DNA of 64,000 nucleotides, from the NCBI RefSeq assembly GCF_028752835.1, contig NZ_CP087952.1, positions 3,036,501 through 3,100,500 on the forward strand. The letters run 5' to 3'. The notes below the pieces were generated by a model that was not told the origin of the DNA, did no database searches, and saw only the letters and a program-made list of their open reading frames with translations. Position 1 is the stretch's first letter. Each line of letters opens with the position of its first letter. The position numbers were made by a program, and so were the translations under genes. Source of the stretch: Desulfosarcina sp. BuS5 (GTDB lineage: Bacteria > Desulfobacterota > Desulfobacteria > Desulfobacterales > BuS5). Positions 40,282 to 57,443 of this stretch are shown here, piece after piece.

Positions 40282-42063
40282 TTAAAGTCTATAAAAGCAT
40301 ATCCTCTCAAATCCCAATGCCACTACTACAAATTTTTGCAGCCGCAGGTTACCATGCCTTTGTTCAAGTTTTTCACCATACTCTTTTACCTGTTTTTTAC
40401 CATCTTCCATTTGCGTTACAATTTCAGGTACCTGATACAGCTCATCTTTAGACAGCTTTTTCGCCTGTTCAGCGCTTAATCCTGAATCTTTTAGCTTTAC
40501 AAACTTAAACTCAATCAAAACATCAAATACTTTGCCGTATCTTTTATCCGGCCTGATGATCATGGTTAGATCAGCATAGCGTCGGTCAATCTCTTTTTCA
40601 GAATCCATGATATAGATAATGTCGTTGTAAAGCAGTGTCAAAAATGCTGTCTTTAGTGTCAATTCATTTGCCCACCTGTAATCCCTGTTATGAAAAACCT
40701 TGAAATATCTCTCCTCCATGAATCTACACAAAGGAGCCATATCTCCTTTCTGGTACACCAGTTCTGCAGCATCTCTGCCATCATCCCTGTCATCAGGCTC
40801 CGGCAAAAACATTTTTTGAACCCGCTCCACATATAGACTCTGCATAACGAGATTGGGTACTTTTAAAATTACTTTTAGTTCTTCAGTATCACCCGCAATG
40901 GTCAATACTCCGAAATAGTAAAGAAAAGAGACCAGGAATGTATTATCTCTGGATTTATCCGTCAGCATATCTTTAAGTCCAAAACGATCTTCAATATCTG
41001 ATATTACAACATCTTGATCTTTTTGCACCAGGTTCATTAAAAGATCTCTTCCACGGGGAATCTGAGCAATATACTCAAGCTTTGCCTCATCTACTGCAAG
41101 GTTTGAATCCAGCATTTTTCTCGGATAGCTGCACATTTTTTCAAACTGTTCAAAAAAATACAAAGAAAGCGTTGGATTATAAATTTGTTCATCTGTTGTA
41201 TGAGAAAAAGTATAACCATTATAGTAAGTCTGCATTAAACTTGCAGCTTCCCGGGCTTTTTCTTTTTCAAAACCGCATTTATCAACAATATCTTTGAGTA
41301 CATTCTCAATTTCATTCTGCTTAAACCCGCACAGGTCATTAAACTCCGGCTCAAAGTAAATATTCTTTGCAATATTATACCCGCTTGTAATATCGCTCAT
41401 AACAACAGGTGAAACCCCTGTAATAAACACACGGTCAAACATAGAACCTGAAGTTGATGCTTTTACTGCTTTAAAAAAAGTTCTAAGAGGACCCTCTTCA
41501 TGCACAAGCGCTTTATATCTGCCTTCAGAGCTTTGAACCCCCATCATAACTGTATTTGCAAAATTATCATACTCATCTATTAGAAGATATACAGGATATG
41601 GGGTCATGCGGGCTGAAGTAATAAGAGATTTCATTGAAAAAAGGGCATCTTCCCGATCGATCTCAATCGCAGGCAATTCAAATCCTTTATAATTATAAAC
41701 TTTATAAAATTCGATAATACATGCATTAATATGATTAAAAAGAGCCTTTTTAACATCTTCAGCGCTGCCGGTGGGATCAACACATGAAAAATCGAGCTTT
41801 AAAATAAAATATGAATTACGTAGATCAGTTGGATTTTTTCCGATCTTCAATCCACCAAAGAGCTCTTCAAATTCGTCTTTTTTTGCCACATCATAGTAAT
41901 TTTCCAGCATGGAGAGCACAAGGCTTTTACCAAAACGCCTGGGACGAATAAAGAGTTGAAAATCCGAATTTTCAAGCAGAGGTATTTTATCTGTTCTGTC
42001 ACAGTAAAAATAATTTTTAGTATTAATCTTTTTAAAATCAGATATACCGTATGGATATTTCAT
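40282..42063 (-). CDS. Array copy 1: AAA-ATPase_like / PD-(D/E)XK protein
   Basis: All copies share this plan over 593 residues. The P-loop lacks its first Gly (RPRRFGKS, 40-47), Walker B is VYLLIDEYDN (158-167), and a sensor-like strand is RVFITGVSPVV (211-221). A linker follows, then a C-terminal nuclease-like domain with Asp498 (RYADLTMII) and Glu518-Phe-Lys520 (VLIEFKF). The family (PF09820 with PF08011-like nuclease) is of unknown function. Copy 1 is the last transcribed and most divergent at the C-terminus (MFLPEP, GRDAAELV, KVFDV, LKDSGLS). Blocks: start FKKINTK, EELFGG, middle block A (INACIIEFYKVYN), SGSMF, FKQNEIENV. Ribosome site AAAGGAGCAGACA precedes the ATG, as in all copies. 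Confidence 0.88.
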   Translation of the reverse strand: MKYPYGISDFKKINTKNYFYCDRTDKIPLLENSDFQLFIRPRRFGKSLVLSMLENYYDVAKKDEFEELFGGLKIGKNPTDLRNSYFILKLDFSCVDPTGSAEDVKKALFNHINACIIEFYKVYNYKGFELPAIEIDREDALFSMKSLITSARMTPYPVYLLIDEYDNFANTVMMGVQSSEGRYKALVHEEGPLRTFFKAVKASTSGSMFDRVFITGVSPVVMSDITSGYNIAKNIYFEPEFNDLCGFKQNEIENVLKDIVDKCGFEKEKAREAASLMQTYYNGYTFSHTTDEQIYNPTLSLYFFEQFEKMCSYPRKMLDSNLAVDEAKLEYIAQIPRGRDLLMNLVQKDQDVVISDIEDRFGLKDMLTDKSRDNTFLVSFLYYFGVLTIAGDTEELKVILKVPNLVMQSLYVERVQKMFLPEPDDRDDGRDAAELVYQKGDMAPLCRFMEERYFKVFHNRDYRWANELTLKTAFLTLLYNDIIYIMDSEKEIDRRYADLTMIIRPDKRYGKVFDVLIEFKFVKLKDSGLSAEQAKKLSKDELYQVPEIVTQMEDGKKQVKEYGEKLEQRHGNLRLQKFVVVALGFERICFYRL

Positions 42064-42162
42064 TGTCTGCTCCTTTTAACGGCCTGATTGCCAGCGTTTT
42101 TTGTTAAAAAACTTTTTAGAAAGCCATAATATTTGGAAGATTTTTCATATTATTGCCTTTTT
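42064..42162 (-). other. 99-bp spacer with a 10-codon leader ORF (one of eight)
   Basis: On the minus strand after a copy's stop comes GGCAATAATATG, then a short ORF (42148 to 42116) coding MKNLPNIMAF, then an inverted TTTTTTAACAAAAAA-type stretch and the ribosome site AAAGGAG of the next copy. The upstream and first codons match the start of the 518-residue paralogue (ATTATG AAAAATCTTCC, as at 60835-60850). The same spacer recurs every 1881 bp up to 55231-55329. In the spacer at 43945-44043 the last leader residue is Leu. Confidence 0.75.
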
Positions 42163-43944
42163 TTAAAGTCTATAAAAGCATATCCTCTCAAATCCCAATG
42201 CCACTACTACAAATTTTTGCAGCCGCAGGTTACCATGCCTTTGTTCAAGTTTTTCACCATACTCTTTTACCTGTTTTTTACCATCTTCCATTTGCATTAC
42301 AATTTCAGGTACCTGATACAGCTCATCTTTAGACAGCTTTTTCGCCTGTTCAGCGCTTAATCCTGCATTTTTAAGCTTTACAAACTTAAACTCAATCAAA
42401 ACATCAAATACGTTGCCATATCTTTTATCCGGCCTGATGATCATGGTCAGATCTGCATATCTGCGGTCAATCTCTTTTTCAGAATCCATGATATAGATAA
42501 TATCGTTGTAAAGCAGTGTCAGGAATGCTGTTTTTAGTGTCAGCTCATTTGCCCATCTGTAATCCCTGTTATGAAAAACCTTGAAATATCTCTCTTCCAT
42601 AAACCTGCACAAAAGAGTCATATCCCCTTTTTGATATACTTTTTTTGCAGCATCTTTACCATCATCCCTGTCATCAGGCTCCGGCAAAAGCATTTTTTGA
42701 ACCCGCTCCACATATAGACTTTGCATAACGAGATTGGGAACTTTTAAAATAACTTCCATATCTTCAGTATCACCTGCAATGGTGAGTACTCCGAAATAAT
42801 AAAGAAAAGAAACCAGGAATGTATTATCTCTGGATTTATCCGTCAGCATCTCTTCTATACCGAATCGTTTACTGATTTTTTCTGCTACAACCTGCTGATC
42901 TTTTTCCATCAGGCTCATTAAAAGATCACTTCCTTTTGGAATTTGAGCAATATATTTAAGCTTTGCTTCATCTACTGCAAGATTGTCATCTAACATCTCT
43001 CTTGGATAACTGCATCTTTTTTCAAACTGTTTAAAAAAATATAAACAAAGAGTTGGGTTATAAATTTGTTCATCTGCTGTATGGGAAAAGGTATAACCAT
43101 TATAATAAGTCTTCATTAAACTTGCAGCTTCCCGGGCTTTTTCTTTTTCAAAACCGCATTTATCAACAATATTTTTGAGTACATCCTCAATTTCATTATG
43201 CTTAAACCCGCACAGATCATTAAACTCAGGTTCAAAATAAATATTTTCAGCAATATTATACCCGCTTGTAATATCGCTCATAACAACAGGTGAAACCCCT
43301 GTTATAAAAACACGGTCAAACATGGAACTTGAAGTTGAGGATTTTACTGCTTTAAAAAAAGTTCTAAGAGGACCCTCTTCATGCACAAGAGCTTTGTACC
43401 TGCCTTCAGAGCTTTGAACCCCCATCATTACTGTATTGGCAAAATTATCATACTCATCTATTAAAAGATATACAGGATATGGGGTCATGCGGGAAGCGCT
43501 GACAAGAGATTTTAAAGAGTATAGAGCATCATCAAAATTGACTTTTATTTGAGGTAATTCATACCCTTTATATTTATAAAAAGCATAAAATCCTTCAATA
43601 CAACCGTTAATATGATTAAAAAGAGCCCTTTTCACATCTTCAGCGCTTCCTGTGGGATCAACACACGAAAAATCAAATCTCAAAATAAAATATGAATTAC
43701 GCAATTCTGTGGGGTTTTTCCCGATTTTTAAATCACCAAAGATCGCTTCAAATTCATCCTTTTTTGCCACATCATAATAGTTTTCCAGCATTGAAAGCAC
43801 AAGGCTTTTGCCAAAACGTCTGGGACGGATAAAGAGTTGGGATTTTGTATTTTCAAGCAGAGGTATTTTATCTGTTTTATCGCAATAAAAATATTTTTCC
43901 AAAATAATACTACTAAAATCAGAAATACCGTATGGATATTTCAT
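42163..43944 (-). CDS. Array copy 2: AAA-ATPase_like / PD-(D/E)XK protein
   Basis: Same length and motifs as copy 1. It has the alternative start block FSSIILEKYF, EAIFGD, middle block G (INGCIEGFYAFYKYKGYELP), SSTSSS, and FKHNEIEDV. It alone carries a distinct stretch at residues 316-366 (REMLDDN, PKGSDLLMSLMEKD, EKISKRFGIEEML), where all other copies read RK.LDSN...ISDIEDRFGLKDML. It then rejoins the DMEV/KDAAKKV type, with TLLC for APLC. The first half matches copy 5. D498 and E518xK520 are kept. Confidence 0.88.
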   Translation of the reverse strand: MKYPYGISDFSSIILEKYFYCDKTDKIPLLENTKSQLFIRPRRFGKSLVLSMLENYYDVAKKDEFEAIFGDLKIGKNPTELRNSYFILRFDFSCVDPTGSAEDVKRALFNHINGCIEGFYAFYKYKGYELPQIKVNFDDALYSLKSLVSASRMTPYPVYLLIDEYDNFANTVMMGVQSSEGRYKALVHEEGPLRTFFKAVKSSTSSSMFDRVFITGVSPVVMSDITSGYNIAENIYFEPEFNDLCGFKHNEIEDVLKNIVDKCGFEKEKAREAASLMKTYYNGYTFSHTADEQIYNPTLCLYFFKQFEKRCSYPREMLDDNLAVDEAKLKYIAQIPKGSDLLMSLMEKDQQVVAEKISKRFGIEEMLTDKSRDNTFLVSFLYYFGVLTIAGDTEDMEVILKVPNLVMQSLYVERVQKMLLPEPDDRDDGKDAAKKVYQKGDMTLLCRFMEERYFKVFHNRDYRWANELTLKTAFLTLLYNDIIYIMDSEKEIDRRYADLTMIIRPDKRYGNVFDVLIEFKFVKLKNAGLSAEQAKKLSKDELYQVPEIVMQMEDGKKQVKEYGEKLEQRHGNLRLQKFVVVALGFERICFYRL

Positions 43945-44043
43945 TGTCTGCTCCTTTTAACGGCCTGATTGCCGGCGTTTTTTGTTAAAAAACTTTTTAC
44001 AAAGCCATAATATTTGGAAGATTTTTCATATTATTGCCTTTTT

Positions 44044-45825
44044 TTAAAGTCTATAAAAGCATATCCTCTCAAATCCCAATGCCACTACTACAAATTTTTT
44101 GAGCCGCAGGTTACCATGCCTTTGTTCAAGTTTTTCACCATACTCTTTTACCTGTTTTTTACCATCTTCCATTTGCGTTACAATTTCAGGTACCTGATAC
44201 AGCTCATCTTTAGACAGCTTTTTCGCCTGTTCAGCACTTAATCCTGCATTTTTAAGCTTTACAAACTTAAACTCAATCAAAACATCAAATACGTTGCCGT
44301 ATCTTTTATCCGGCCTGATGATCATGGTCAGATCTGCATATCTGCGGTCAATCTCTTTTTCAGAATCCATGATATAGATAATATCGTTGTAAAGCAGTGT
44401 CAGGAATGCTGTCTTTAATGTCAGTTCATTTGTCCACCTGTAATCCCTGTTATGAAAAACCTTGAAATATCTCTCTTCCATAAACCTGCACAAAGGAGCC
44501 ATATCCCCTTTTTGATATACTTTTTTTGCAGCATCTTTACCATCATCCCTGTCATCAGGCTCCGGCAAAAGCATTTTTTGAACCCGCTCCACATATAGAC
44601 TTTGCATAACGAGATTGGGAACTTTTAAAATAACTTCCATATCTTCAGTATCACCTGCAATGGTGAGTACTCCGAAATAATAAAGAAAAGAGACTAAAAA
44701 TGTATTGTCGCGGGATTTATCCGTCAGCATATCTTTAAGTCCAAAACGATCTTCAATATCTGATATTACAACATCTTGATCTTTTTGCACCAGGTTCATT
44801 AAAAGATCTCTTCCACGGGGAATCTGAGCAATATACTCAAGCTTTGCCTCATCTACTGCAAGGTTTGAATCCAGCATTTTTCTCGGATAGCTGCACATTT
44901 TTTCAAACTGTTCAAAAAAATACAAAGAAAGCGTTGGATTATAAATTTGTTCATCTGTTGTATGAGAAAAAGTATAACCATTATAGTAAGTCTGCATTAA
45001 ACTTGCAGCTTCCCGGGCTTTTTCTTTTTCAAAACCGCATTTATCAACAATATCTTTGAGTACATTCTCAATTTCATTCTGCTTAAACCCGCACAGGTCA
45101 TTAAACTCCGGCTCAAAGTAAATATTCTTTGCAATATTATACCCGCTTGTAATATCGCTCATAACAACAGGTGAAACCCCTGTTATAAAAACACGGTCAA
45201 ACATGGAGCTTGAAGTTGATGCTTTTACTGCTTTAAAAAAAGTTCTAAGCGGACCCTCTTCATGCACAAGCGCTTTGTACCTGCCTTCAGAACTTTGAAC
45301 CCCCATCATAACTGTATTTGCAAAATTATCATACTCATCTATTAGAAGATATACAGGATATGGGGTCATGCGGGCTGAAGTAATAAGAGATTTCATTGAA
45401 AAAAGGGCATCTTCCCGATCGATCTCAATCGCAGGCAATTCAAATCCTTTATAATTATAAACTTTATAAAATTCGATAATACATGCATTAATATGATTAA
45501 AAAGAGCCCTTTTCACATCTTCAGCGCTTCCTGTGGGATCAACACACGAAAAATCAAATCTCAAAATAAAATATGAATTACGCAATTCTGTGGGATTTTT
45601 CCCGATTTTTAAATCACCAAAAATCGCTTCAAATTCATCCTTTTTTGCCACATCATAATAGTTTTCCAGCATTGAAAGCACAAGGCTTTTGCCAAAACGT
45701 CTGGGACGGATAAAGAGTTGGGATTTTGTATTTTCAAGCAGAGGTATTTTATCTGTTTTATCGCAATAAAAATATTTTTCCAAAATAATACTACTAAAAT
45801 CAAAAATACCGTATGGATATTTCAT
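44044..45825 (-). CDS. Array copy 3: AAA-ATPase_like / PD-(D/E)XK protein
   Basis: This copy combines the FSSIILEKYF start block (with Ser8 changed to Phe, GIFDF) and EAIFGD with middle block A (INACIIEFYKVYN), otherwise seen only in copies 1 and 4. It has ASTSSS, FKQNEIENV, DMEV, KDAAKKV, Thr in RWTNEL, IVTQ and the LRLKKF ending. The junction between start type and block A lies between residues 91 and 113, a recombination breakpoint. All motif residues are intact. Confidence 0.88.
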   Translation of the reverse strand: MKYPYGIFDFSSIILEKYFYCDKTDKIPLLENTKSQLFIRPRRFGKSLVLSMLENYYDVAKKDEFEAIFGDLKIGKNPTELRNSYFILRFDFSCVDPTGSAEDVKRALFNHINACIIEFYKVYNYKGFELPAIEIDREDALFSMKSLITSARMTPYPVYLLIDEYDNFANTVMMGVQSSEGRYKALVHEEGPLRTFFKAVKASTSSSMFDRVFITGVSPVVMSDITSGYNIAKNIYFEPEFNDLCGFKQNEIENVLKDIVDKCGFEKEKAREAASLMQTYYNGYTFSHTTDEQIYNPTLSLYFFEQFEKMCSYPRKMLDSNLAVDEAKLEYIAQIPRGRDLLMNLVQKDQDVVISDIEDRFGLKDMLTDKSRDNTFLVSFLYYFGVLTIAGDTEDMEVILKVPNLVMQSLYVERVQKMLLPEPDDRDDGKDAAKKVYQKGDMAPLCRFMEERYFKVFHNRDYRWTNELTLKTAFLTLLYNDIIYIMDSEKEIDRRYADLTMIIRPDKRYGNVFDVLIEFKFVKLKNAGLSAEQAKKLSKDELYQVPEIVTQMEDGKKQVKEYGEKLEQRHGNLRLKKFVVVALGFERICFYRL

Positions 45826-45924
45826 TGTCTGCTCCTTTTAACGGCCTGATTGCCAGCGTTTTTTGTTAAAAAACTTTTTAGAAAGCCATAATATTTGGAA
45901 GATTTTTCATATTATTGCCTTTTT

Positions 45925-47706
45925 TTAAAGTCTATAAAAGCATATCCTCTCAAATCCCAATGCCACTACTACAAATTTTTGCAGCCGCAGGTTACCATGC
46001 CTTTGTTCAAGTTTTTCACCATACTCTTTTACCTGTTTTTTACCATCTTCCATTTGCATTACAATTTCAGGTACCTGATACAGCTCATCTTTAGACAGCT
46101 TTTTCGCCTGTTCAGCGCTTAATCCTGCATTTTTAAGCTTTACAAACTTAAACTCAATCAAAACATCAAATACGTTGCCGTATCTTTTATCCGGCCTGAT
46201 GATCATGGTTAGATCAGCATAGCGTCGGTCAATCTCTTTTTCAGAATCCATGATATAGATAATATCGTTGTAAAGCAGTGTCAGGAATGCTGTCTTTAGT
46301 GTCAGTTCATTTGTCCACCTGTAATCCCTGTTATGAAAAACCTTGAAATATCTCTCTTCCATAAACCTGCACAAAGGAGCCATATCCCCTTTTTGATATA
46401 CTTTTTTTGCAGCATCTTTACCATCATCCCTGTCATCAGGCTCCGGCAAAAGCATTTTTTGAACCCGCTCCACATATAGACTTTGCATAACGAGATTGGG
46501 AACTTTTAAAATAACTTCCATATCTTCAGTATCACCTGCAATGGTGAGTACTCCGAAATAATAAAGAAAAGAGACTAAAAATGTATTGTCGCGGGATTTA
46601 TCCGTCAGCATATCTTTAAGTCCAAAACGATCTTCAATATCTGATATTACAACATCTTGATCTTTTTGCACCAGGTTCATTAAAAGATCTCTTCCACGGG
46701 GAATCTGAGCAATATACTCAAGCTTTGCCTCATCTACTGCAAGGTTTGAATCCAGCATTTTTCTCGGATAGCTGCACATTTTTTCAAACTGTTCAAAAAA
46801 ATACAAAGAAAGCGTTGGATTATAAATTTGTTCATCTGTTGTATGAGAAAAAGTATAACCATTATAGTAAGTCTGCATTAAACTTGCAGCTTCCCGGGCT
46901 TTTTCTTTTTCAAAACCGCATTTATCAACAATATCTTTGAGTACATTCTCAATTTCATTCTGCTTAAACCCGCACAGGTCATTAAACTCCGGCTCAAAGT
47001 AAATATTCTTTGCAATATTATACCCGCTTGTAATATCGCTCATAACAACAGGTGAAACCCCTGTAATAAACACACGGTCAAACATAGAACCTGAAGTTGA
47101 TGCTTTTACTGCTTTAAAAAAAGTTCTAAGAGGACCCTCTTCATGCACAAGCGCTTTATATCTGCCTTCAGAGCTTTGAACCCCCATCATAACTGTATTT
47201 GCAAAATTATCATACTCATCTATTAGAAGATATACAGGATATGGGGTCATGCGGGCTGAAGTAATAAGAGATTTCATTGAAAAAAGGGCATCTTCCCGAT
47301 CGATCTCAATCGCAGGCAATTCAAATCCTTTATAATTATAAACTTTATAAAATTCGATAATACATGCATTAATATGATTAAAAAGAGCCTTTTTAACATC
47401 TTCAGCGCTGCCGGTGGGATCAACACATGAAAAATCGAGCTTTAAAATAAAATATGAATTACGTAGATCAGTTGGATTTTTTCCGATCTTCAATCCACCA
47501 AAGAGCTCTTCAAATTCGTCTTTTTTTGCCACATCATAGTAATTTTCCAGCATGGAGAGCACAAGGCTTTTACCAAAACGCCTGGGACGAATAAAGAGTT
47601 GAAAATCCGAATTTTCAAGCAGAGGTATTTTATCTGTTCTGTCACAGTAAAAATAATTTTTAGTATTAATCTTTTTAAAATCAGATATACCGTATGGATA
47701 TTTCAT
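45925..47706 (-). CDS. Array copy 4: AAA-ATPase_like / PD-(D/E)XK protein
   Basis: From the start to about residue 390 this copy is the same as copy 1 (FKKINTK, EELFGG, block A, SGSMF, FKQNEIENV, ISDIEDRFGLKDML). From there to the C-terminus it follows copy 3 and copy 7 (DMEV, LLPEP, KDAAKKV, RWTNEL). It is therefore a clear two-parent chimera, with a break near residues 393-398. It ends LRLQKF. Motifs are intact. Confidence 0.88.
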   Translation of the reverse strand: MKYPYGISDFKKINTKNYFYCDRTDKIPLLENSDFQLFIRPRRFGKSLVLSMLENYYDVAKKDEFEELFGGLKIGKNPTDLRNSYFILKLDFSCVDPTGSAEDVKKALFNHINACIIEFYKVYNYKGFELPAIEIDREDALFSMKSLITSARMTPYPVYLLIDEYDNFANTVMMGVQSSEGRYKALVHEEGPLRTFFKAVKASTSGSMFDRVFITGVSPVVMSDITSGYNIAKNIYFEPEFNDLCGFKQNEIENVLKDIVDKCGFEKEKAREAASLMQTYYNGYTFSHTTDEQIYNPTLSLYFFEQFEKMCSYPRKMLDSNLAVDEAKLEYIAQIPRGRDLLMNLVQKDQDVVISDIEDRFGLKDMLTDKSRDNTFLVSFLYYFGVLTIAGDTEDMEVILKVPNLVMQSLYVERVQKMLLPEPDDRDDGKDAAKKVYQKGDMAPLCRFMEERYFKVFHNRDYRWTNELTLKTAFLTLLYNDIIYIMDSEKEIDRRYADLTMIIRPDKRYGNVFDVLIEFKFVKLKNAGLSAEQAKKLSKDELYQVPEIVMQMEDGKKQVKEYGEKLEQRHGNLRLQKFVVVALGFERICFYRL

Positions 47707-47805
47707 TGTCTGCTCCTTTTAACGGCCTGATTGCCAGCGTTTTTTGTTAAAAAACTTTTTAGAAAGCCATAATATTTGGAAGATTTTTCATATTATTGCC
47801 TTTTT

Positions 47806-49587
47806 TTAAAGTCTATAAAAGCATATCCTCTCAAATCCCAATGCCACTACTACAAATTTTTGCAGCCGCAGGTTACCATGCCTTTGTTCAAGTTTTTCAC
47901 CATACTCTTTTACCTGTTTTTTACCATCTTCCATTTGCATTACAATTTCAGGTACCTGATACAGCTCATCTTTAGACAGCTTTTTCGCCTGTTCAGCGCT
48001 TAATCCTGCATTTTTAAGCTTTACAAACTTAAACTCAATCAAAACATCAAATACGTTGCCGTATCTTTTATCCGGCCTGATGATCATGGTCAGATCTGCA
48101 TATCTGCGGTCAATCTCTTTTTCAGAATCCATGATATAGATAATATCGTTGTAAAGCAGTGTCAGGAATGCTGTTTTTAGTGTCAGCTCATTTGCCCATC
48201 TGTAATCCCTGTTATGAAAAACCTTGAAATATCTCTCCTCCATGAATCTACACAAAGGAGCCATATCCCCTTTTTGATAGATCTTTTCTGCGGCAAGTTT
48301 TCCATCATCCCTGTCATCAGGCTCCGGCAAAAGCATTTTTTGAACCCGCTCCACATATAGACTTTGCATAACGAGATTGGGAACTTTTAAGATTACCTTT
48401 AGATCTTCTGTATCACCTGCAATGGTGAGTACTCCGAAATAATAAAGAAAAGAGACTAAAAATGTATTGTCGCGGGATTTATCCGTCAGCATATCTTTAA
48501 GTCCAAAACGATCTTCAATATCTGATATTACAACATCTTGATCTTTTTGCACCAGGTTCATTAAAAGATCTCTTCCACGGGGAATCTGAGCAATATACTC
48601 AAGCTTTGCCTCATCTACTGCAAGGTTTGAGTCCAGTATTTTTCTCGGGTAGCTGCATCTTTTTTCAAACTGTTTAAAAAAATATAAACAAAGAGTTGGG
48701 TTATAAATTTGTTCATCTGCTGTATGGGAAAAGGTATAACCATTATAATAAGTCTTCATTAAACTTGCAGCTTCCCGGGCTTTTTCTTTTTCAAAACCGC
48801 ATTTATCAACAATATTTTTGAGTACATCCTCAATTTCATTATGCTTAAACCCGCACAGATCATTAAACTCAGGTTCAAAATAAATATTTTCAGCAATATT
48901 ATACCCGCTTGTAATATCGCTCATAACAACAGGTGAAACCCCTGTTATAAAAACACGGTCAAACATGGAACTTGAAGTTGAGGATTTTACTGCTTTAAAA
49001 AAAGTTCTAAGAGGACCCTCTTCATGCACAAGAGCTTTGTACCTGCCTTCAGAGCTTTGAACCCCCATCATTACTGTATTGGCAAAATTATCATACTCAT
49101 CTATTAAAAGATATACAGGATATGGGGTCATGCGGGAAGCGCTGACAAGAGATTTTAAAGAGTATAGAGCATCATCAAAATTGACTTTTATTTGAGGTAA
49201 TTCATACCCTTTATATTTATAAAAAGCATAAAATCCTTCAATACAACCGTTAATATGATTAAAAAGAGCCCTTTTCACATCTTCAGCGCTTCCTGTGGGA
49301 TCAACACACGAAAAATCAAATCTCAAAATAAAATATGAATTACGCAATTCTGTGGGGTTTTTCCCGATTTTTAAATCACCAAAGATCGCTTCAAATTCAT
49401 CCTTTTTTGCCACATCATAATAGTTTTCCAGCATTGAAAGCACAAGGCTTTTGCCAAAACGTCTGGGACGGATAAAGAGTTGGGATTTTGTATTTTCAAG
49501 CAGAGGTATTTTATCTGTTTTATCGCAATAAAAATATTTTTCCAAAATAATACTACTAAAATCAGAAATACCGTATGGATATTTCAT
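47806..49587 (-). CDS. Array copy 5: AAA-ATPase_like / PD-(D/E)XK protein
   Basis: The first 315 residues are those of copy 2 (FSSIILEKYF, EAIFGD, block G with EGFYAF, SSTSSS, FKHNEIEDV). After that it switches to RKILDSN...ISDIEDRFGLKDML and the DLKV/KLAAEKI type shared with copies 6, 8 and 9. Ile317 in place of Met is shared only with copy 6. It ends IVMQ...LRLQKF. Motifs are intact. Confidence 0.88.
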   Translation of the reverse strand: MKYPYGISDFSSIILEKYFYCDKTDKIPLLENTKSQLFIRPRRFGKSLVLSMLENYYDVAKKDEFEAIFGDLKIGKNPTELRNSYFILRFDFSCVDPTGSAEDVKRALFNHINGCIEGFYAFYKYKGYELPQIKVNFDDALYSLKSLVSASRMTPYPVYLLIDEYDNFANTVMMGVQSSEGRYKALVHEEGPLRTFFKAVKSSTSSSMFDRVFITGVSPVVMSDITSGYNIAENIYFEPEFNDLCGFKHNEIEDVLKNIVDKCGFEKEKAREAASLMKTYYNGYTFSHTADEQIYNPTLCLYFFKQFEKRCSYPRKILDSNLAVDEAKLEYIAQIPRGRDLLMNLVQKDQDVVISDIEDRFGLKDMLTDKSRDNTFLVSFLYYFGVLTIAGDTEDLKVILKVPNLVMQSLYVERVQKMLLPEPDDRDDGKLAAEKIYQKGDMAPLCRFMEERYFKVFHNRDYRWANELTLKTAFLTLLYNDIIYIMDSEKEIDRRYADLTMIIRPDKRYGNVFDVLIEFKFVKLKNAGLSAEQAKKLSKDELYQVPEIVMQMEDGKKQVKEYGEKLEQRHGNLRLQKFVVVALGFERICFYRL

Positions 49588-49686
49588 TGTCTGCTCCTTT
49601 TAACGGCCTGATTGCCGGCGTTTTTTGTTAAAAAACTTTTTAGAAAGCCATAATATTTGGAAGATTTTTCATATTATTGCCTTTTT

Positions 49687-51468
49687 TTAAAGTCTATAAA
49701 AACATATCCTCTCAAATCCCAATGCCACCACTACAAATTTTTTGAGCCGCAGGTTACCATGCCTTTGTTCAAGTTTTTCACCATACTCTTTTACCTGTTT
49801 TTTACCATCTTCCATTTGCATTACAATTTCAGGTACCTGATACAGCTCATCTTTAGACAGCTTTTTCGCCTGTTCAGCGCTTAATCCTGCATTTTTAAGC
49901 TTTACAAACTTAAACTCAATCAAAACATCAAATACGTTGCCGTATCTTTTATCCGGCCTGATGATCATGGTCAGATCTGCATATCTGCGGTCAATCTCTT
50001 TTTCAGAATCCATGATATAGATAATATCGTTGTAAAGCAGTGTCAGGAATGCTGTTTTTAGTGTCAGCTCATTTGCCCATCTGTAATCCCTGTTATGAAA
50101 AACCTTGAAATATCTCTCTTCCATAAACCTGCACAAAGGAGCCATATCCCCTTTTTGATAGATCTTTTCTGCGGCAAGTTTTCCATCATCCCTGTCATCA
50201 GGCTCCGGCAAAAGCATTTTTTGAACCCGCTCCACATATAGACTTTGCATAACGAGATTGGGAACTTTTAAGATTACCTTTAGATCTTCTGTATCACCTG
50301 CAATGGTGAGTACTCCGAAATAATAAAGAAAAGAGACTAAAAATGTATTGTCGCGGGATTTATCCGTCAGCATATCTTTAAGTCCAAAACGATCTTCAAT
50401 ATCTGATATTACAACATCTTGATCTTTTTGCACCAGGTTCATTAAAAGATCTCTTCCACGGGGAATCTGAGCAATATACTCAAGCTTTGCCTCATCTACT
50501 GCAAGGTTTGAGTCCAGTATTTTTCTCGGGTAGCTGCATCTTTTTTCAAACTGTTTAAAAAAATATAAACAAAGAGTTGGGTTATAAATTTGTTCATCTG
50601 CTGTATGGGAAAAGGTATAACCATTATAATAAGTCTTCATTAAACTTGCAGCTTCCCGGGCTTTTTCTTTTTCAAAACCGCATTTATCAACAATATTTTT
50701 GAGTACATCCTCAATTTCATTATGCTTAAACCCGCACAGATCATTAAACTCAGGTTCAAAATAAATATTTTCAGCAATATTATACCCGCTTGTAATATCG
50801 CTCATAACAACAGGTGAAACCCCTGTAATAAACACACGGTCAAACATGGAGCTTGAAGTTGAGGATTTTACTGCTTTAAAAAAAGTTCTAAGAGGACCCT
50901 CTTCATGCACAAGAGCTTTGTACCTGCCTTCAGAGCTTTGAACCCCCATCATTACTGTATTTGCAAAATTATCATACTCATCTATTAGAAGATATACAGG
51001 ATATGGGGTCATGCGGGAAGCGCTGACAAGAGATTTTAAAGAGTATAGAGCATCATCAAAATTGACTTTTATTTGAGGTAATTCATACCCTTTATATTTA
51101 TAAAAAGCATAAAATTCTTCAATACAACCGTTAATATGATTAAAAAGAGCCCTTTTCACATCTTCAGCGCTTCCTGTGGGATCAACACACGAAAAATCAA
51201 ATCTCAAAATAAAATATGAATTACGGAATTCTGTGGGATTTTTCCCGATTTTTAAATCACCAAAAATCGCTTCAAATTCATCCTTTTTTGCCACATCATA
51301 ATAGTTTTCCAGCATGGAGAGCACAAGGCTTTTACCAAAACGCCTGGGACGAATAAAGAGTTGAAAATCCGAATTTTCAAGCAGAGGTATTTTATCTGTT
51401 CTATCACAGTAAAAATAATTTTTAGTATTAATCTTTTTAAAATCAGATATACCGTATGGATATTTCAT
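49687..51468 (-). CDS. Array copy 6: AAA-ATPase_like / PD-(D/E)XK protein
   Basis: This copy has the FKKINTK/ENSDFQ start (as copies 1 and 4) joined to EAIFGD with a private Phe in PTEFRNSY, then middle block G in its EEFYAF form (shared with copy 8). SSTSSS, FKHNEIEDV, RKILDSN, DLKV and KLAAEKI follow, ending LRLKKF. The break between start type and block G lies around residues 55-65. The spacer before its ATG has TGCCTGCTCC where others have TGTCTGCTCC on the plus strand. Confidence 0.88.
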   Translation of the reverse strand: MKYPYGISDFKKINTKNYFYCDRTDKIPLLENSDFQLFIRPRRFGKSLVLSMLENYYDVAKKDEFEAIFGDLKIGKNPTEFRNSYFILRFDFSCVDPTGSAEDVKRALFNHINGCIEEFYAFYKYKGYELPQIKVNFDDALYSLKSLVSASRMTPYPVYLLIDEYDNFANTVMMGVQSSEGRYKALVHEEGPLRTFFKAVKSSTSSSMFDRVFITGVSPVVMSDITSGYNIAENIYFEPEFNDLCGFKHNEIEDVLKNIVDKCGFEKEKAREAASLMKTYYNGYTFSHTADEQIYNPTLCLYFFKQFEKRCSYPRKILDSNLAVDEAKLEYIAQIPRGRDLLMNLVQKDQDVVISDIEDRFGLKDMLTDKSRDNTFLVSFLYYFGVLTIAGDTEDLKVILKVPNLVMQSLYVERVQKMLLPEPDDRDDGKLAAEKIYQKGDMAPLCRFMEERYFKVFHNRDYRWANELTLKTAFLTLLYNDIIYIMDSEKEIDRRYADLTMIIRPDKRYGNVFDVLIEFKFVKLKNAGLSAEQAKKLSKDELYQVPEIVMQMEDGKKQVKEYGEKLEQRHGNLRLKKFVVVALGFERICFYRL

Positions 51469-51567
51469 TGCCTGCTCCTTTTAACGGCCTGATTGCCGGC
51501 GTTTTTTGTTAAAAAACTTTTTAGAAAGCCATAATATTTGGAAGATTTTTCATATTATTGCCTTTTT

Positions 51568-53349
51568 TTAAAGTCTATAAAAGCATATCCTCTCAAATCC
51601 CAATGCCACTACTACAAATTTTTGCAGCCGCAGGTTACCATGCCTTTGTTCAAGTTTTTCACCATACTCTTTTACCTGTTTTTTACCATCTTCCATTTGC
51701 ATTACAATTTCAGGTACCTGATACAGCTCATCTTTAGACAGCTTTTTCGCCTGTTCAGCGCTTAATCCTGCATTTTTAAGCTTTACAAACTTAAACTCAA
51801 TCAAAACATCAAATACGTTGCCGTATCTTTTATCCGGCCTGATGATCATGGTTAGATCAGCATAGCGTCGGTCAATCTCTTTTTCAGAATCCATGATATA
51901 GATAATATCGTTGTAAAGCAGTGTCAGGAATGCTGTCTTTAGTGTCAGTTCATTTGTCCACCTGTAATCCCTGTTATGAAAAACCTTGAAATATCTCTCT
52001 TCCATAAACCTGCACAAAGGAGCCATATCCCCTTTTTGATATACTTTTTTTGCAGCATCTTTACCATCATCCCTGTCATCAGGCTCCGGCAAAAGCATTT
52101 TTTGAACCCGCTCCACATATAGACTTTGCATAACGAGATTGGGAACTTTTAAAATAACTTCCATATCTTCAGTATCACCTGCAATGGTGAGTACTCCGAA
52201 ATAATAAAGAAAAGAGACTAAAAATGTATTGTCGCGGGATTTATCCGTCAGCATATCTTTAAGTCCAAAACGATCTTCAATATCTGATATTACAACATCT
52301 TGATCTTTTTGCACCAGGTTCATTAAAAGATCTCTTCCACGGGGAATCTGAGCAATATACTCAAGCTTTGCCTCATCTACTGCAAGGTTTGAATCCAGCA
52401 TTTTTCTCGGATAGCTGCATCTTTTTTCAAACTGTTTAAAAAAATATAAACAAAGAGTTGGGTTATAAATTTGTTCATCTGCTGTATGGGAAAAGGTATA
52501 ACCATTATAATAAGTCTTCATTAAACTTGCAGCTTCCCGGGCTTTTTCTTTTTCAAAACCGCATTTATCAACAATCTTTTTGAGTACATATTCAATTTCA
52601 TTATGCTTAAACCCGCACAGATCATTAAACTCAGGTTCAAAATAGATATTCTCAGCAATATTATACCCGCTTGTAATATCGCTCATAACAACAGGTGAAA
52701 CCCCTGTAATAAACACACGGTCAAACATAGAGCTTGAGGTTGAGGCTTTTACTGCTTTAAAAAAAGTTCTAAGAGGACCCTCTTCATGCACAAGCGCTTT
52801 ATATCTGCCTTCAGAGCTTTGAACCCCCATCATAACTGTATTTGCAAAATTATCATACTCATCTATAAGCAGATAAATCGGGTATGGAGTCATGCGGATT
52901 GAAGCAATAAGAGAATCGATCGAATAAAGGGCGTCTTCCCGATTAATTTCAATATTTGGAATTTCAAACCCTTTGTAATTATAAAATTTATAAAATCCAT
53001 CAATTCGTACATTAATATGATTAAAAAGAGCCCTTTTCACATCTTCAGCGCTTCCTGTGGGATCAACACACGAAAAATCAAATCTCAAAATAAAATATGA
53101 ATTACGCAATTCTGTGGGGTTTTTCCCGATTTTTAAATCACCAAAGATCGCTTCAAATTCATCCTTTTTTGCCACATCATAATAGTTTTCCAGCATTGAA
53201 AGCACAAGGCTTTTGCCAAAACGTCTGGGACGGATAAAGAGTTGGGATTTTGTATTTTCAAGCAGAGGTATTTTATCTGTTTTATCGCAATAAAAATATT
53301 TTTCCAAAATAATACTACTAAAATCAGAAATACCGTATGGATATTTCAT
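51568..53349 (-). CDS. Array copy 7: AAA-ATPase_like / PD-(D/E)XK protein
   Basis: This copy carries the third middle block, V (INVRIDGFYKFYNYKGFEIP, DALYSIDSLIASIRMTPYPI), shared only with copy 9. Around it are the FSSIILEKYF start, EAIFGD, ASTSSS and an H-type region with private residues (EIEYVLKKIV). The C-terminal part is of the DMEV/KDAAKKV/RWTNEL type, ending LRLQKF. All motif residues are present. Confidence 0.88.
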   Translation of the reverse strand: MKYPYGISDFSSIILEKYFYCDKTDKIPLLENTKSQLFIRPRRFGKSLVLSMLENYYDVAKKDEFEAIFGDLKIGKNPTELRNSYFILRFDFSCVDPTGSAEDVKRALFNHINVRIDGFYKFYNYKGFEIPNIEINREDALYSIDSLIASIRMTPYPIYLLIDEYDNFANTVMMGVQSSEGRYKALVHEEGPLRTFFKAVKASTSSSMFDRVFITGVSPVVMSDITSGYNIAENIYFEPEFNDLCGFKHNEIEYVLKKIVDKCGFEKEKAREAASLMKTYYNGYTFSHTADEQIYNPTLCLYFFKQFEKRCSYPRKMLDSNLAVDEAKLEYIAQIPRGRDLLMNLVQKDQDVVISDIEDRFGLKDMLTDKSRDNTFLVSFLYYFGVLTIAGDTEDMEVILKVPNLVMQSLYVERVQKMLLPEPDDRDDGKDAAKKVYQKGDMAPLCRFMEERYFKVFHNRDYRWTNELTLKTAFLTLLYNDIIYIMDSEKEIDRRYADLTMIIRPDKRYGNVFDVLIEFKFVKLKNAGLSAEQAKKLSKDELYQVPEIVMQMEDGKKQVKEYGEKLEQRHGNLRLQKFVVVALGFERICFYRL

Positions 53350-53448
53350 TGTCTGCTCCTTTTAACGGCCTGATTGCCGGCGTTTTTTGTTAAAAAACTT
53401 TTTAGAAAGCCATAATATTTGGAAGATTTTTCATATTATTGCCTTTTT

Positions 53449-55230
53449 TTAAAGTCTATAAAAACATATCCTCTCAAATCCCAATGCCACCACTACAAAT
53501 TTTTTGAGCCGCAGGTTACCATGCCTTTGTTCAAGTTTTTCACCATACTCTTTTACCTGTTTTTTACCATCTTCCATTTGCATTACAATTTCAGGTACCT
53601 GATACAGCTCATCTTTAGACAGCTTTTTCGCCTGTTCAGCGCTTAATCCTGCATTTTTAAGCTTTACAAACTTAAACTCAATCAAAACATCAAATACGTT
53701 GCCGTATCTTTTATCCGGCCTGATGATCATGGTCAGATCTGCATATCTGCGGTCAATCTCTTTTTCAGAATCCATGATATAGATAATATCGTTGTAAAGC
53801 AGTGTCAGGAATGCTGTTTTTAGTGTCAGCTCATTTGCCCATCTGTAATCCCTGTTATGAAAAACCTTGAAATATCTCTCCTCCATGAATCTACACAAAG
53901 GAGCCATATCCCCTTTTTGATAGATCTTTTCTGCGGCAAGTTTTCCATCATCCCTGTCATCAGGCTCCGGCAAAAGCATTTTTTGAACCCGCTCCACATA
54001 TAGACTTTGCATAACGAGATTGGGAACTTTTAAGATTACCTTTAGATCTTCTGTATCACCTGCAATGGTGAGTACTCCGAAATAATAAAGAAAAGAGACT
54101 AAAAATGTATTGTCGCGGGATTTATCCGTCAGCATATCTTTAAGTCCAAAACGATCTTCAATATCTGATATTACAACATCTTGATCTTTTTGCACCAGGT
54201 TCATTAAAAGATCTCTTCCACGGGGAATCTGAGCAATATACTCAAGCTTTGCCTCATCTACTGCAAGGTTTGAGTCCAGCATTTTTCTCGGATAGCTGCA
54301 CATTTTTTCAAACTGTTCAAAAAAATACAAAGAAAGCGTTGGATTATAAATTTGTTCATCTGTTGTATGAGAAAAAGTATAACCATTATAGTAAGTCTGC
54401 ATTAAACTTGCAGCTTCCCAGGCTTTTTCTTTTTCAAAACCGCATTTATCAACAATATCTTTGAGTACATTCTCAATTTCATTCTGCTTAAACCCGCACA
54501 GGTCATTAAACTCCGGCTCAAAGTAAATATTCTTTGCAATATTATACCCGCTTGTAATATCGCTCATAACAACAGGTGAAACCCCTGTTATAAAAACACG
54601 GTCAAACATGGAACTTGAAGTTGATGCTTTTACTGCTTTAAAAAAAGTTCTAAGAGGACCCTCTTCATGCACAAGCGCTTTGTACCTGCCTTCAGAGCTC
54701 TGAACTCCCATCATTACTGTATTGGCAAAATTATCATACTCATCTATTAGAAGATATACAGGATATGGGGTCATGCGGGAAGCGCTGACAAGAGATTTTA
54801 AAGAGTATAGAGCATCGTCAAAATTGACTTTTATTTGAGGTAATTCATACCCTTTATATTTATAAAAAGCATAAAATTCTTCAATACAACCGTTAATATG
54901 ATTAAAAAGAGCCCTTTTCACATCTTCAGCGCTTCCTGTGGGATCAACACACGAAAAATCAAATCTCAAAATAAAATATGAATTACGCAATTCTGTGGGA
55001 TTTTTCCCGATTTTTAAATCACCAAAAATCGCTTCAAATTCATCCTTTTTTGCCACATCATAATAGTTTTCCAGCATTGAAAGCACAAGGCTTTTGCCAA
55101 AACGTCTGGGACGGATAAAGAGTTGGGATTTTGTATTTTCAAGCAGAGGTATTTTATCTGTTTTATCGCAATAAAAATATTTTTCCAAAATAATACTACT
55201 AAAATCAGAAATACCGTATGGATATTTCAT
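53449..55230 (-). CDS. Array copy 8: AAA-ATPase_like / PD-(D/E)XK protein
   Basis: Start FSSIILEKYF, EAIFGD and block G (EEFYAF) as in copy 6 are joined after Walker B to ASTSSS and the FKQNEIENV type, as in copies 1, 3, 4 and 9. It has one private change, AWEAAS for AREAAS at residue 271. DLKV and KLAAEKI follow, ending LRLKKF. The switch from G-linked to Q-type sequence falls within residues 165-233, which are nearly invariant and so ideal for recombination. Confidence 0.88.
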   Translation of the reverse strand: MKYPYGISDFSSIILEKYFYCDKTDKIPLLENTKSQLFIRPRRFGKSLVLSMLENYYDVAKKDEFEAIFGDLKIGKNPTELRNSYFILRFDFSCVDPTGSAEDVKRALFNHINGCIEEFYAFYKYKGYELPQIKVNFDDALYSLKSLVSASRMTPYPVYLLIDEYDNFANTVMMGVQSSEGRYKALVHEEGPLRTFFKAVKASTSSSMFDRVFITGVSPVVMSDITSGYNIAKNIYFEPEFNDLCGFKQNEIENVLKDIVDKCGFEKEKAWEAASLMQTYYNGYTFSHTTDEQIYNPTLSLYFFEQFEKMCSYPRKMLDSNLAVDEAKLEYIAQIPRGRDLLMNLVQKDQDVVISDIEDRFGLKDMLTDKSRDNTFLVSFLYYFGVLTIAGDTEDLKVILKVPNLVMQSLYVERVQKMLLPEPDDRDDGKLAAEKIYQKGDMAPLCRFMEERYFKVFHNRDYRWANELTLKTAFLTLLYNDIIYIMDSEKEIDRRYADLTMIIRPDKRYGNVFDVLIEFKFVKLKNAGLSAEQAKKLSKDELYQVPEIVMQMEDGKKQVKEYGEKLEQRHGNLRLKKFVVVALGFERICFYRL

Positions 55231-55329
55231 TGTCTGCTCCTTTTAACGGCCTGATTGCCGGCGTTTTTTGTTAAAAAACTTTTTAGAAAGCCATAATATT
55301 TGGAAGATTTTTCATATTATTGCCTTTTT

Positions 55330-57111
55330 TTAAAGTCTATAAAAACATATCCTCTCAAATCCCAATGCCACCACTACAAATTTTTTGAGCCGCAGGTTAC
55401 CATGCCTTTGTTCAAGTTTTTCACCATACTCTTTTACCTGTTTTTTACCATCTTCCATTTGCATTACAATTTCAGGTACCTGATACAGCTCATCTTTAGA
55501 CAGCTTTTTCGCCTGTTCAGCGCTTAATCCTGCATTTTTAAGCTTTACAAACTTAAACTCAATCAAAACATCAAATACGTTGCCGTATCTTTTATCCGGC
55601 CTGATGATCATGGTCAGATCTGCATATCTGCGGTCAATCTCTTTTTCAGAATCCATGATATAGATAATATCGTTGTAAAGCAGTGTCAGGAATGCTGTTT
55701 TTAGTGTCAGCTCATTTGCCCATCTGTAATCCCTGTTATGAAAAACCTTGAAATATCTCTCCTCCATGAATCTACACAAAGGAGCCATATCCCCTTTTTG
55801 ATAGATCTTTTCTGCGGCAAGTTTTCCATCATCCCTGTCATCAGGCTCCGGCAAAAGCATTTTTTGAACCCGCTCCACATATAGACTTTGCATAACGAGA
55901 TTGGGAACTTTTAAGATTACCTTTAGATCTTCTGTATCACCTGCAATGGTGAGTACTCCGAAATAATAAAGAAAAGAGACTAAAAATGTATTGTCGCGGG
56001 ATTTATCCGTCAGCATATCTTTAAGTCCAAAACGATCTTCAATATCTGATATTACAACATCTTGATCTTTTTGCACCAAGTTCATTAAAAGATCTTTTCC
56101 ACGGGGAATCTGAGCAATATACTCAAGCTTTGCCTCATCTACTGCAAGGTTTGAATCCAGCATTTTTCTCGGATAGCTGCACATTTTTTCAAACTGTTCA
56201 AAAAAATACAAAGAAAGCGTTGGATTATAAATTTGTTCATCTGTTGTATGAGAAAAAGTATAACCATTATAATATGTCTGCATTAAACTTGCAGCTTCCC
56301 GGGCTTTTTCTTTTTCAAAACCGCATTTATCAACAATATCTTTGAGTACATTCTCAATTTCATTCTGCTTAAACCCGCACAGATCATTAAACTCCGGCTC
56401 AAAGTAAATATTCTTTGCAATATTATACCCGCTTGTAATATCGCTCATAACAACAGGCGAAACCCCTGTAATAAACACACGGTCAAACATAGAACCTGAA
56501 GTTGATGCTTTTACTGCTTTAAAAAAAGTTCTAAGAGGACCCTCTTCATGCACAAGCGCTTTATATCTGCCTTCAGAGCTTTGAACCCCCATCATAACTG
56601 TATTTGCAAAATTATCATACTCATCTATAAGCAGATAAATCGGGTATGGAGTCATGCGGATTGAAGCAATAAGAGAATCGATCGAATAAAGGGCGTCTTC
56701 CCGATTAATTTCAATATTTGGAATTTCAAACCCTTTATAATTATAAAATTTATAAAATCCATCAATTCGTACATTAATATGATTAAAAAGAGCCCTTTTC
56801 ACATCTTCAGCGCTTCCTGTGGGATCAACACACGAAAAATCAAATCTCAAAATAAAATATGAATTACGCAATTCTGTGGGGTTTTTCCCGATTTTTAAAT
56901 CACCAAAGATCGCTTCAAATTCATCCTTTTTTGCCACATCATAATAGTTTTCCAGCATTGAAAGCACAAGGCTTTTGCCAAAACGTCTTGGCCGGATAAA
57001 AAGTTGAGATTTTATATTTTCAAGCAAAGGTATTTTATTTGTTTTATCGCAATAAAAATATTTTTCCAAAATAATACTACTAAAATCAGAAATACCGTAT
57101 GGATATTTCAT
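55330..57111 (-). CDS. Array copy 9 (first transcribed): AAA-ATPase_like / PD-(D/E)XK protein
   Basis: This is the promoter-proximal unit. It has the FSSIILEKYF start with private TNKIPLLENIKSQ, EAIFGD, middle block V (shared with copy 7), SGSMF, FKQNEIENV with PRGKDLL, then DLKV/KLAAEKI, ending LRLKKF. It lacks the upstream leader ORF because the array's right edge lies only 18 bp before the ATG, just beyond its ribosome site. The promoter is therefore in unique DNA (57130 onward) or absent. Motifs are intact. Confidence 0.88.
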   Translation of the reverse strand: MKYPYGISDFSSIILEKYFYCDKTNKIPLLENIKSQLFIRPRRFGKSLVLSMLENYYDVAKKDEFEAIFGDLKIGKNPTELRNSYFILRFDFSCVDPTGSAEDVKRALFNHINVRIDGFYKFYNYKGFEIPNIEINREDALYSIDSLIASIRMTPYPIYLLIDEYDNFANTVMMGVQSSEGRYKALVHEEGPLRTFFKAVKASTSGSMFDRVFITGVSPVVMSDITSGYNIAKNIYFEPEFNDLCGFKQNEIENVLKDIVDKCGFEKEKAREAASLMQTYYNGYTFSHTTDEQIYNPTLSLYFFEQFEKMCSYPRKMLDSNLAVDEAKLEYIAQIPRGKDLLMNLVQKDQDVVISDIEDRFGLKDMLTDKSRDNTFLVSFLYYFGVLTIAGDTEDLKVILKVPNLVMQSLYVERVQKMLLPEPDDRDDGKLAAEKIYQKGDMAPLCRFMEERYFKVFHNRDYRWANELTLKTAFLTLLYNDIIYIMDSEKEIDRRYADLTMIIRPDKRYGNVFDVLIEFKFVKLKNAGLSAEQAKKLSKDELYQVPEIVMQMEDGKKQVKEYGEKLEQRHGNLRLKKFVVVALGFERICFYRL

Positions 57112-57257
57112 TGTCTGCTCCTTTTAACGGCTATCGCAACAATAATATTAAATTACGAATTTATTTTTGTGCAAACCCTAACGGTCTGATGCTCTTTCCT
57201 CTCCAGGAATACGAGTATGAATTAATTTTGTCAATCTTACCTGAAACAATCAAGTTG

Positions 57258-57443
57258 TTACATCTTCTGCACTTCACGAAGCCTTTCAATCGCATATGCA
57301 TTGCCCTGATCAATTTCCAGCACCTTGTTGTAAAACACCATTGCATCATCAACCTTTTTAAGTGACTCACATATCTGCCCCAGAATAAGCAAAGTTTCAA
57401 TATCGGTTGGATTGGCTTCTAAAAGCTTTTTTATATGAAACAC
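57258..57443 (-). pseudogene. C-terminal TPR gene fragment at the array's right border
   Basis: The frame reads MFHIKKLLEANPTDIETLLI, then LGQICESLKKVDDAMVFYNK and VLEIDQGNAYAIERL. This is one and a half TPR units followed by a stop. It looks like the end of a longer TPR or TPR-glycosyltransferase gene whose 5' part is missing. The only start is GTG with no good ribosome site. It lies directly upstream of copy 9, so the array was probably inserted beside or into this gene's end. Confidence 0.5.

Follow-up and report, generated by a model that had tools for sequence, protein, structure and literature searches.

A 64,000-nucleotide stretch of the Desulfosarcina sp. BuS5 genome (NCBI RefSeq assembly GCF_028752835.1, contig NZ_CP087952.1, positions 3,036,501 to 3,100,500, forward strand; hereafter the window) carries a tandem array of nine genes (array A) for 593-amino-acid (aa) proteins with a predicted PF09820-type ATPase and a PD-(D/E)XK nuclease. 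Together with two further units beyond the window (array B), these genes are mosaics of old alleles reassorted at four short segments, two of which, VR1 (aa 110-152) and VR3 (aa 316-372), have close counterparts at other loci and in another metagenome-assembled genome (MAG). We hold the chances to be even that the array is a combinatorial repertoire of NLR-like ATPase-nucleases with swappable cassettes setting specificity, and we infer that VR1 and VR3 set this specificity, that the nuclease is active and that the context is one of conflict with phages or other mobile DNA.

Array A consists of nine intact open reading frames (ORFs), all on the minus strand (window positions 40282-57111), each running from ATG to TAA, with a start-to-start period of exactly 1881 bp throughout and eight internal 99-bp spacers (0-2 nt differences). 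The ORF coordinates thus agree with an earlier note on this DNA, which had described nine intact same-strand ORFs of 593 codons with 99-bp spacers and an 1881-bp step. Array B (C1:3104487-3108149) holds two more 593-aa units, 1881 bp apart, about 10.9 kb upstream of array A in gene sense, and brings the total to 11 units (copy numbers as assembled; genome 4.18 Mb, 2 contigs). An array limited to the window was thereby ruled out, as was chance or a simple repeat artefact (by the nine intact ORFs, the exact step and purifying selection). In the following list the module letters give the alleles at aa 6-36, VR1, VR3 and aa 395-440, in that order.

55330-57111, minus strand: A1, first in gene sense, 593 aa; VR1 at 56656-56784, VR3 (aa 316-372) at 55996-56166, minus strand; modules A,A,A,A
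55231-55329, minus strand: 99-bp spacer, one of eight, the others at -1881 steps down to 42064-42162
53449-55230, minus strand: A2, 593 aa; VR1 at 54775-54903; modules A,B,A,A
51568-53349, minus strand: A3, 593 aa; VR1 at 52894-53022; modules A,A,A,B
49687-51468, minus strand: A4, 593 aa; VR1 at 51013-51141; modules B,B,A,A
47806-49587, minus strand: A5 (the copy modelled for structure), 593 aa; VR1 at 49132-49260; modules A,B,A,A
45925-47706, minus strand: A6, 593 aa; VR1 at 47251-47379; modules B,C,A,B
44044-45825, minus strand: A7, 593 aa; VR1 at 45370-45498; modules A,C,A,B
42163-43944, minus strand: A8, 593 aa; VR1 at 43489-43617; modules A,B,B,B
40282-42063, minus strand: A9, last in gene sense, 593 aa; VR1 at 41608-41736; modules B,C,A,C

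Coding sequences of the nine window copies differ pairwise at 39-219 of 1782 nt (282 variable sites). Over all 11 copies, 241 biallelic informative sites gave a PHI-like value of 0.09 against 0.53 after permutation (p ~0.001; own implementation, 500 or 1000 permutations), and the Hudson-Kaplan minimum is 24 exchanges. The protein alleles are few (two at aa 6-36, three at VR1 with mutual identities of 55-69%, two at VR3 and three at aa 395-440), and they form ten module combinations among 11 distinct proteins. The overall dN/dS of 0.17 denotes purifying selection; the highest 40-codon values were found at aa 321-360 (0.61), aa 521-560 (0.42, at very low divergence), aa 121-160 (0.38) and aa 1-40 (0.36). 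Together with active-site motifs kept in all 11 copies, this constraint bears out the earlier view that intact but non-identical copies do not reflect decay. The same note had proposed selection for dosage or diversity: since what distinguishes the copies is a reassortment of old alleles at fixed protein positions, diversity is favoured, and dosage alone, which does not predict such reassortment, was set aside.

The VR1 of A6, A7, A9 and B2 is 98% identical to that of paralogues at C1:2690 kb and C1:1449 kb, which otherwise resemble the array at 83-88% overall. The allele of A2, A4, A5, A8 and B1 matches a paralogue at C1:1356 kb at 90-91% (73-76% overall) and a gene of another MAG (L055) at 88-89%, while that of A1 and A3 matches a second gene of the same MAG (L056) at 89-90%. 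For VR3, A8 and B2 are 92% identical to one paralogue, and the remaining copies 88-92% identical to the other paralogue and to both MAG genes. Judged by these identities, the VR1 and VR3 alleles predate the array. Hypermutation of the diversity-generating retroelement type is not favoured, because the alleles are discrete and shared across loci. A reverse-transcriptase-like ORF (L123 1212-1751; PADLOC RT, E 2.9e-12, 75 residues) was seen beside a dispersed family gene. Scattered fragments of the 593-aa subfamily (71-93% identity; C1:1426337-1426799, 2695903-2696090, 1901947-1902099, 2413548-2414119 and 316097-316378) may be remnants or sequence donors. All 11 units are full length, with start codon, the ribosome-binding site AAAAGGAG and active-site motifs, the degenerate fragments lying elsewhere in the genome; the full-length state of the units would speak against silent-cassette antigenic variation.

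The fixed position of the VR1 cassette recurs across the family. Full-length relatives from the BuS5 genome and others, mostly of the same order, gave 143 pairs in 16 clusters (median identity over alignment windows at least 85%), in which a drop was defined as more than 15 points over two alignment windows and a cluster was scored if any one pair dropped. VR1 drops occurred in 12/16 clusters (a non-random sample, as clusters were gathered largely because they are arrays) and P-loop drops in 0/16; elsewhere, drops fell at aa 316-440 (7/16), aa 226-315 (5/16), the N-terminus (3/16), Walker B-sensor 1 (2/16) and aa 441-465 (1/16). A circular-shift test on the VR1 drop gave p 5e-5 (1e-4 when the cluster of the window was left out). 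Among 49 near relatives, whose pairs are non-independent, those with a backbone above 93% identity fell below 75% at VR1 in 52% and at VR3 in 33% of cases (n = 48 each), and at the other seven segments in 0% (n 39-57); in distant subfamilies the VR2 and VR3 positions are alignment-dependent.

Genome G118 (one contig, 6.9 Mb) has 49 PF09820 matches, some in tandem groups with near-constant steps (e.g., 1587, 1587, 1581, 1586; 1714, 1715, 1718). In its locus L119 (three adjacent genes and one 3.7 kb off), VR1 is common to copies 1/3 and 2/4 and a second module to copies 1/2 and 3/4, making a full 2x2 factorial; the four-gene array L115 is likewise 2x2, its second module lying further downstream. 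The PHI-like test was significant for the window array, L114, L115, L119, the Persicobacter set and G318; six Fusobacterium copies, whose three closest pairs drop at VR1 only, gave no significant value (p 0.24). In Persicobacter (Bacteroidota), 116 differences separate the genes L222 and L224, which lie 3.4 kb from each other: 11 fall in the first 300 nt, 105 in the ~200 nt that follow (around VR1) and 0 in the last ~1.17 kb. Between L220 and L222, the first 300 nt show no difference and the sequences diverge thereafter. As L222 thus shares its end with one neighbour and its start with another, it looks like a recombinant. G318, which belongs to the same phylum but is more distantly related (one contig, 1.8 Mb), has 14 dispersed whole-domain PF09820 copies, and 12 of these were examined: VR1 drops were present in 67% of the 28 most similar pairs. 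An array is therefore not needed, and what these genomes have in common is the cassette. Open frames of 518-519 aa were noted in 13/14 of the G318 copies.

Both Pfam domains were found in A1 and A9 (PF09820 at 151.9 and 159.2 bits, cut-off 26.1; PF08011 at 28.7 and 29.8 bits, cut-off 25.5). The earlier note had assigned the genes to a PF09820 plus PDDEXK_9-like family that is often multicopy and of no established function; the domains agree, and the literature searched held no functional account. RPRRFGKS, LIDEYD, ITGV, E467, D498 and E518-F-K520 are kept in 11/11 units, so that the ATPase motifs and D...ExK residues reported for every copy hold in 9/9 and in the two units outside the window as well. 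RPRRFGK, D163-E164, D166, E467, D498, E518 and K520 are invariant in an alignment of 35 sequences. An AlphaFold2 model of A5 was obtained from 35 sequences (pLDDT 83.5, pTM 0.69) and used for fold search; an earlier model from 14 sequences (pLDDT 44.5) was not used for that purpose. A sequence search of the PDB found no relative (best E 0.27). Model residues 1-413 resemble the archaeal ATPases 2qen (Z 18.2, 3.9 A, 314 aligned) and 2fna (Z 17.4), the plant NLR RPP1 (7dfv; Z 15.7, 3.9 A, 289 aligned), CED-4 (2a5y; Z 14.7, 4.5 A, 299 aligned) and archaeal Orc2 (Z 14.0), and Cdc6/Orc1 ranked top in Foldseek. Residues 423-592 resemble the CinB nuclease 7et0 (Z 12.5, 2.6 A over 130 residues). The array protein is thus predicted to combine a STAND/NLR-like core (nucleotide-binding, helical and winged-helix domains) with a PD-(D/E)XK nuclease fold, in accordance with the ATPase and nuclease assignment that modelling of one unit had been proposed to check. 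VR1 occupies most of helix 101-125, the following loop and helix 140-151, in a modelled helical hairpin between beta-2 (strand 85-91) and the Walker B strand (158-163). In the excerpts available, Knizewski 2007 (PMC1913061) predicts for the family an AAA+ module, a small helical region and a PD-(D/E)XK domain.

A constant switch and nuclease, exchangeable modules at fixed sites and several intact versions kept together form a pattern that points to recognition. We reason that the nuclease and the P-loop, Walker B and sensor 1 of the ATPase switch would be held near constant, while long-lived alternative alleles would be carried by short modules (VR1, the lid/winged-helix module and, in this array, the N-terminus as well). 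Copies inside the array and at other sites of the genome would undergo homologous recombination, which would homogenise the common parts and deal the modules into new combinations, with unequal exchange setting copy number. The modules would probably determine what each protein senses or binds (invader DNA or protein, or a partner subunit), and binding would trigger the ATPase switch, which would in turn release the nuclease, with many specificities carried at once. Defence systems are known in which a nuclease is joined to a STAND ATPase. PF09820 is moreover listed for RdrA, PARIS1 and Old-tin in the accessible part of PMC10952713, and on both grounds a use in conflict with phages or other mobile DNA seems the likeliest.

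The fixed hypervariable cassette in an otherwise constant ATPase-nuclease shows where to look for function, and natural pairs differing almost only at VR1 are ready-made swap experiments. Should VR1 set specificity, a large class of recombining bacterial recognition proteins would have gone unrecognised, and one that is probably under-counted, since draft assemblies break inside arrays (seen in one case, G002:C362, and otherwise presumed). Tentatively, and leaning against it ourselves, we raise the broader possibility that at least three phyla carry such an NLR-like repertoire, in which recognition modules inside the ATPase switch are recombined between tandem and dispersed paralogues and an ATP-gated nuclease gains combinatorial specificities, as a prokaryotic counterpart of plant NLR clusters.

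Several observations weigh against the repertoire reading. Neither Pfam, the model nor the fold comparison revealed a long C-terminal sensor or repeat domain in the 593 residues, and with the core alignment spanning residues 1-423 and the nuclease alignment 423-593 there is no room for one. VR1 drops were absent from 4/16 clusters and from the duplicated segment within the window (38527-39459 and 60412-61344, 98.5%), the nuclease drops in 2/16 clusters, and the G318 pairs drop also at aa 181-240 (32-39%) and aa 346-421 (28-39%). The dN/dS at aa 121-160 (0.38) and aa 321-360 (0.61) is elevated yet below 1. No PADLOC-DB family matched A1 at E <= 0.1. Around 30 family loci of BuS5 and G118, 123 neighbouring genes were scanned (one 4,450-aa neighbour excluded), and no partner or defence system recurred among the matches listed (25 families per list), for which there was no random-locus control. 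At 1e-5, 89 PADLOC families were matched among 55 BuS5 neighbours and 37 among 68 G118 neighbours, and nearly all of those listed were hit by a single protein each (e.g., type II/III methyltransferases, RtcR, Cas12f-like, AriA). The defence matches listed, again with no random-locus control, are single restriction-modification, CRISPR-type or toxin-antitoxin proteins, and the Pfam families listed are mainly metabolic, sugar and redox, with few PIN, PemK and HEPN. Hence, of the earlier suggestion of a system like those of defence, conflict or surface variation, the diversity stands, and defence or conflict is not borne out (no PADLOC match for A1 and no clear defence context). Surface variation looks unlikely, as both enzymatic sites are intact in 11/11 units and AAAAGGAG precedes each gene (no program for signal peptides was run).

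If surface segments under loose constraint drift and gene conversion acts elsewhere, part of the pattern results without any recognition, which also counts against the repertoire reading. In its full form, neutral concerted evolution holds that unequal crossing-over and gene conversion homogenise the copies wherever divergence does not prevent recombination, VR1 and VR3 being drifted, poorly constrained, recombination-resistant surface islands. In keeping with this, aa 481-593, which adjoin the spacer, have low dS (0.02-0.11) as well as low dN, and of the nine segments compared VR1 has the lowest conservation, in distant pairs too (mean nt identity 0.50 at backbone below 80%). Furthermore, 0/1007 pairs of the 49 near relatives with backbone below 80% share VR1 at 86% or more, so that allele sharing is visible only among fairly close relatives, a further mark against the repertoire. 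Drift fits poorly with discrete VR1 alleles that turn up again in paralogues elsewhere (98% identical, where overall identity is 83-88%) and in two genes belonging to another MAG, with the 2x2 factorials, with 11/11 intact copies at dN/dS 0.17 and with a drop at one same place in 12/16 clusters. We consider this account unlikely, yet by some way from negligible.

The spacers suggest how the array was built, and the flanking features are as follows.

57112-57429, minus strand: upstream flank of array A, common to the array B flank; 3' end of a TPR-glycosyltransferase frame
37401-38957, minus strand: 518-aa PF09820-PF08011 gene of another subfamily, downstream of array A
38527-39459, minus strand: duplicated segment (5' part of the 518-aa gene and upstream DNA); second copy at 60412-61344, 98.5% identity
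60336-60842, minus strand: truncated 168-aa copy of the 518-aa subfamily, PF09820 only

The 99 bp upstream of A1 are unrelated to the spacers (54-56 differences). In the spacers, AAAAGGAG lies in front of every array gene start, and the opposite end holds a fossil leader and first five codons (MKNLP) of the 518-aa subfamily: in every one of the nine spacers (eight in A, one in B), the initial 30 bp agree with the truncated gene at 30/30 positions and with the 518-aa gene at 29/30. The tail of a 518-aa-subfamily gene follows array B. The simplest history, as read from these junctions, would be a 593-aa gene beside a 518-aa gene, with the junction arising inside the latter and unequal exchange later copying that single junction into all spacers. 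Seven terminator-like sites within array A are all on the opposite strand, and given this and the AAAAGGAG before each start, a single transcript across several genes is possible. Spacer RNA folding was unremarkable (z -0.48), and promoter scans were at or below chance (6 found against 5.6 expected; 29 against 61.7).

These junctions bear on a further account, in which DUF1703 genes are self-propagating mobile or selfish nucleases, the modules reflect target-site preference and tandem copies are repeated insertions. Presence is indeed patchy with high copy number where present (21/58 relatives, own genome included, 0-43 matches each; 31 matches in BuS5), and both the 14 dispersed copies in G318 and the degenerate BuS5 fragments would suit it. 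As all nine spacers keep one identical junction inside a neighbouring family gene, the array would have arisen by local duplication (terminal repeats and target duplications were not searched), and we regard repeated insertion as clearly improbable. In wider surveys, PF09820 was found in 33/297 genomes of the phylum (at most 10 candidates scored per genome), 42/72,556 plasmid records and 24/50,697 phage records (each listed as 'Bacteriophage sp.' and of human faecal origin); a search of viral contigs with the 518-aa gene gave no match. Three IMG/VR contigs catalogued as viral (L177, L178 and L180; 50-119 kb) have adjacent PF09820-type genes of 590 and 570 aa, ~70 bp apart, at identical locus coordinates, and prophage or host DNA is possible there. 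One genome of the phylum (G405, 3.5 Mb) had 135 first-look PF09820 candidates, 10 of them scored, possibly an extreme expansion.

Less probable still is the reading put forward for the Cardinium DUF1703 expansion, in which the repertoire consists of effectors that are secreted or injected and act on other cells. The nuclease fold resembles Wolbachia CinB, and the accessible parts of Siozios 2019 (PMC6387759) describe predicted secretion and intragenic recombination among the Cardinium paralogues; set against this, in the model the N-terminus of the array protein leads directly into the ATPase core (helix 10-15, strand 35-39), so that a signal peptide would hardly fit (no predictor run). An assembly artefact of collapsed or chimeric repeat units, which the difficulty of assembling near-identical repeats would favour, is very improbable given that the cassette pattern occurs in genomes with assemblies of their own, of which G118 and G318 are single contigs, and in two other-phylum records titled complete, with copies ~3 kb apart (L113) among the cases.

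Arrays A and B are surrounded by a flagellin-like ORF, a TPR-GT41 protein and a TPR-GT2 protein (window 31945-32781, 34816-37269 and 62711-63991) and by large glycosyltransferase-like and radical-SAM-like frames in locus L032 (7897-17157), the L032 labels coming from a reading of the translations; these surroundings possibly constitute a protein glycosylation island. Runs of 15-bp repeats (window 1035-1348; consensus AAATTTCTCCGGGAC and variants) lie within the ORF 823-1602.

Concerning known systems, the array protein is closest to the DUF1703 family as given in the available portions of Knizewski 2007 (PMC1913061), being alike in domains, altered Walker A (RPRRFGKS), DEYD Walker B and PD-(D/E)XK motifs. 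Multicopy expansion with intragenic recombination among paralogues is reported for Cardinium and a Rickettsia in the accessible text of PMC6387759 and PMC1913061; the Cardinium paralogues, as far as that text of PMC6387759 goes, have a mean amino-acid identity of 39% without homogenisation, unlike the array. Among the papers listed in the literature searches, there was no account of exact-step arrays, a fixed VR1 cassette, factorial shuffling or alleles common to different species. AAA_14-DUF4143 ATPases (PADLOC PDC-S01 models) are likewise multicopy in the BuS5 genome (27 matches), but differ in that no constant-step array is found among these matches, and no near-identical paralogue pair among the 23 ORFs compared; one such DUF4143 gene lies in the window (61294-62547), and three matches are clustered at C1:2013458-2017116.

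The predicted core matches that of 2qen, 2fna, CED-4 and RPP1, which we take to be STAND NTPases. The protein has an NLR-like core and yet, on the model, is not a typical NLR: it is without a long C-terminal sensor, its nuclease directly follows the core and its variable modules lie inside the core. In plant NLR clusters, clustered copies recombine, and it is in its clustered, recombining copies that the array is alike. In HsdS of type I restriction-modification, too, a constant frame holds two modules that are exchanged by recombination between loci. This likeness is one of behaviour only: A1 and A9 have no HsdS homology (Pfam matches are PF09820 and PF08011 only), and the modules of the unrelated array protein sit in an ATPase-nuclease with no methylase domain. 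Cassette shuffling is known elsewhere, and its occurrence inside the switch domain of an NLR-like ATPase-nuclease is, as far as we found, apparently new.

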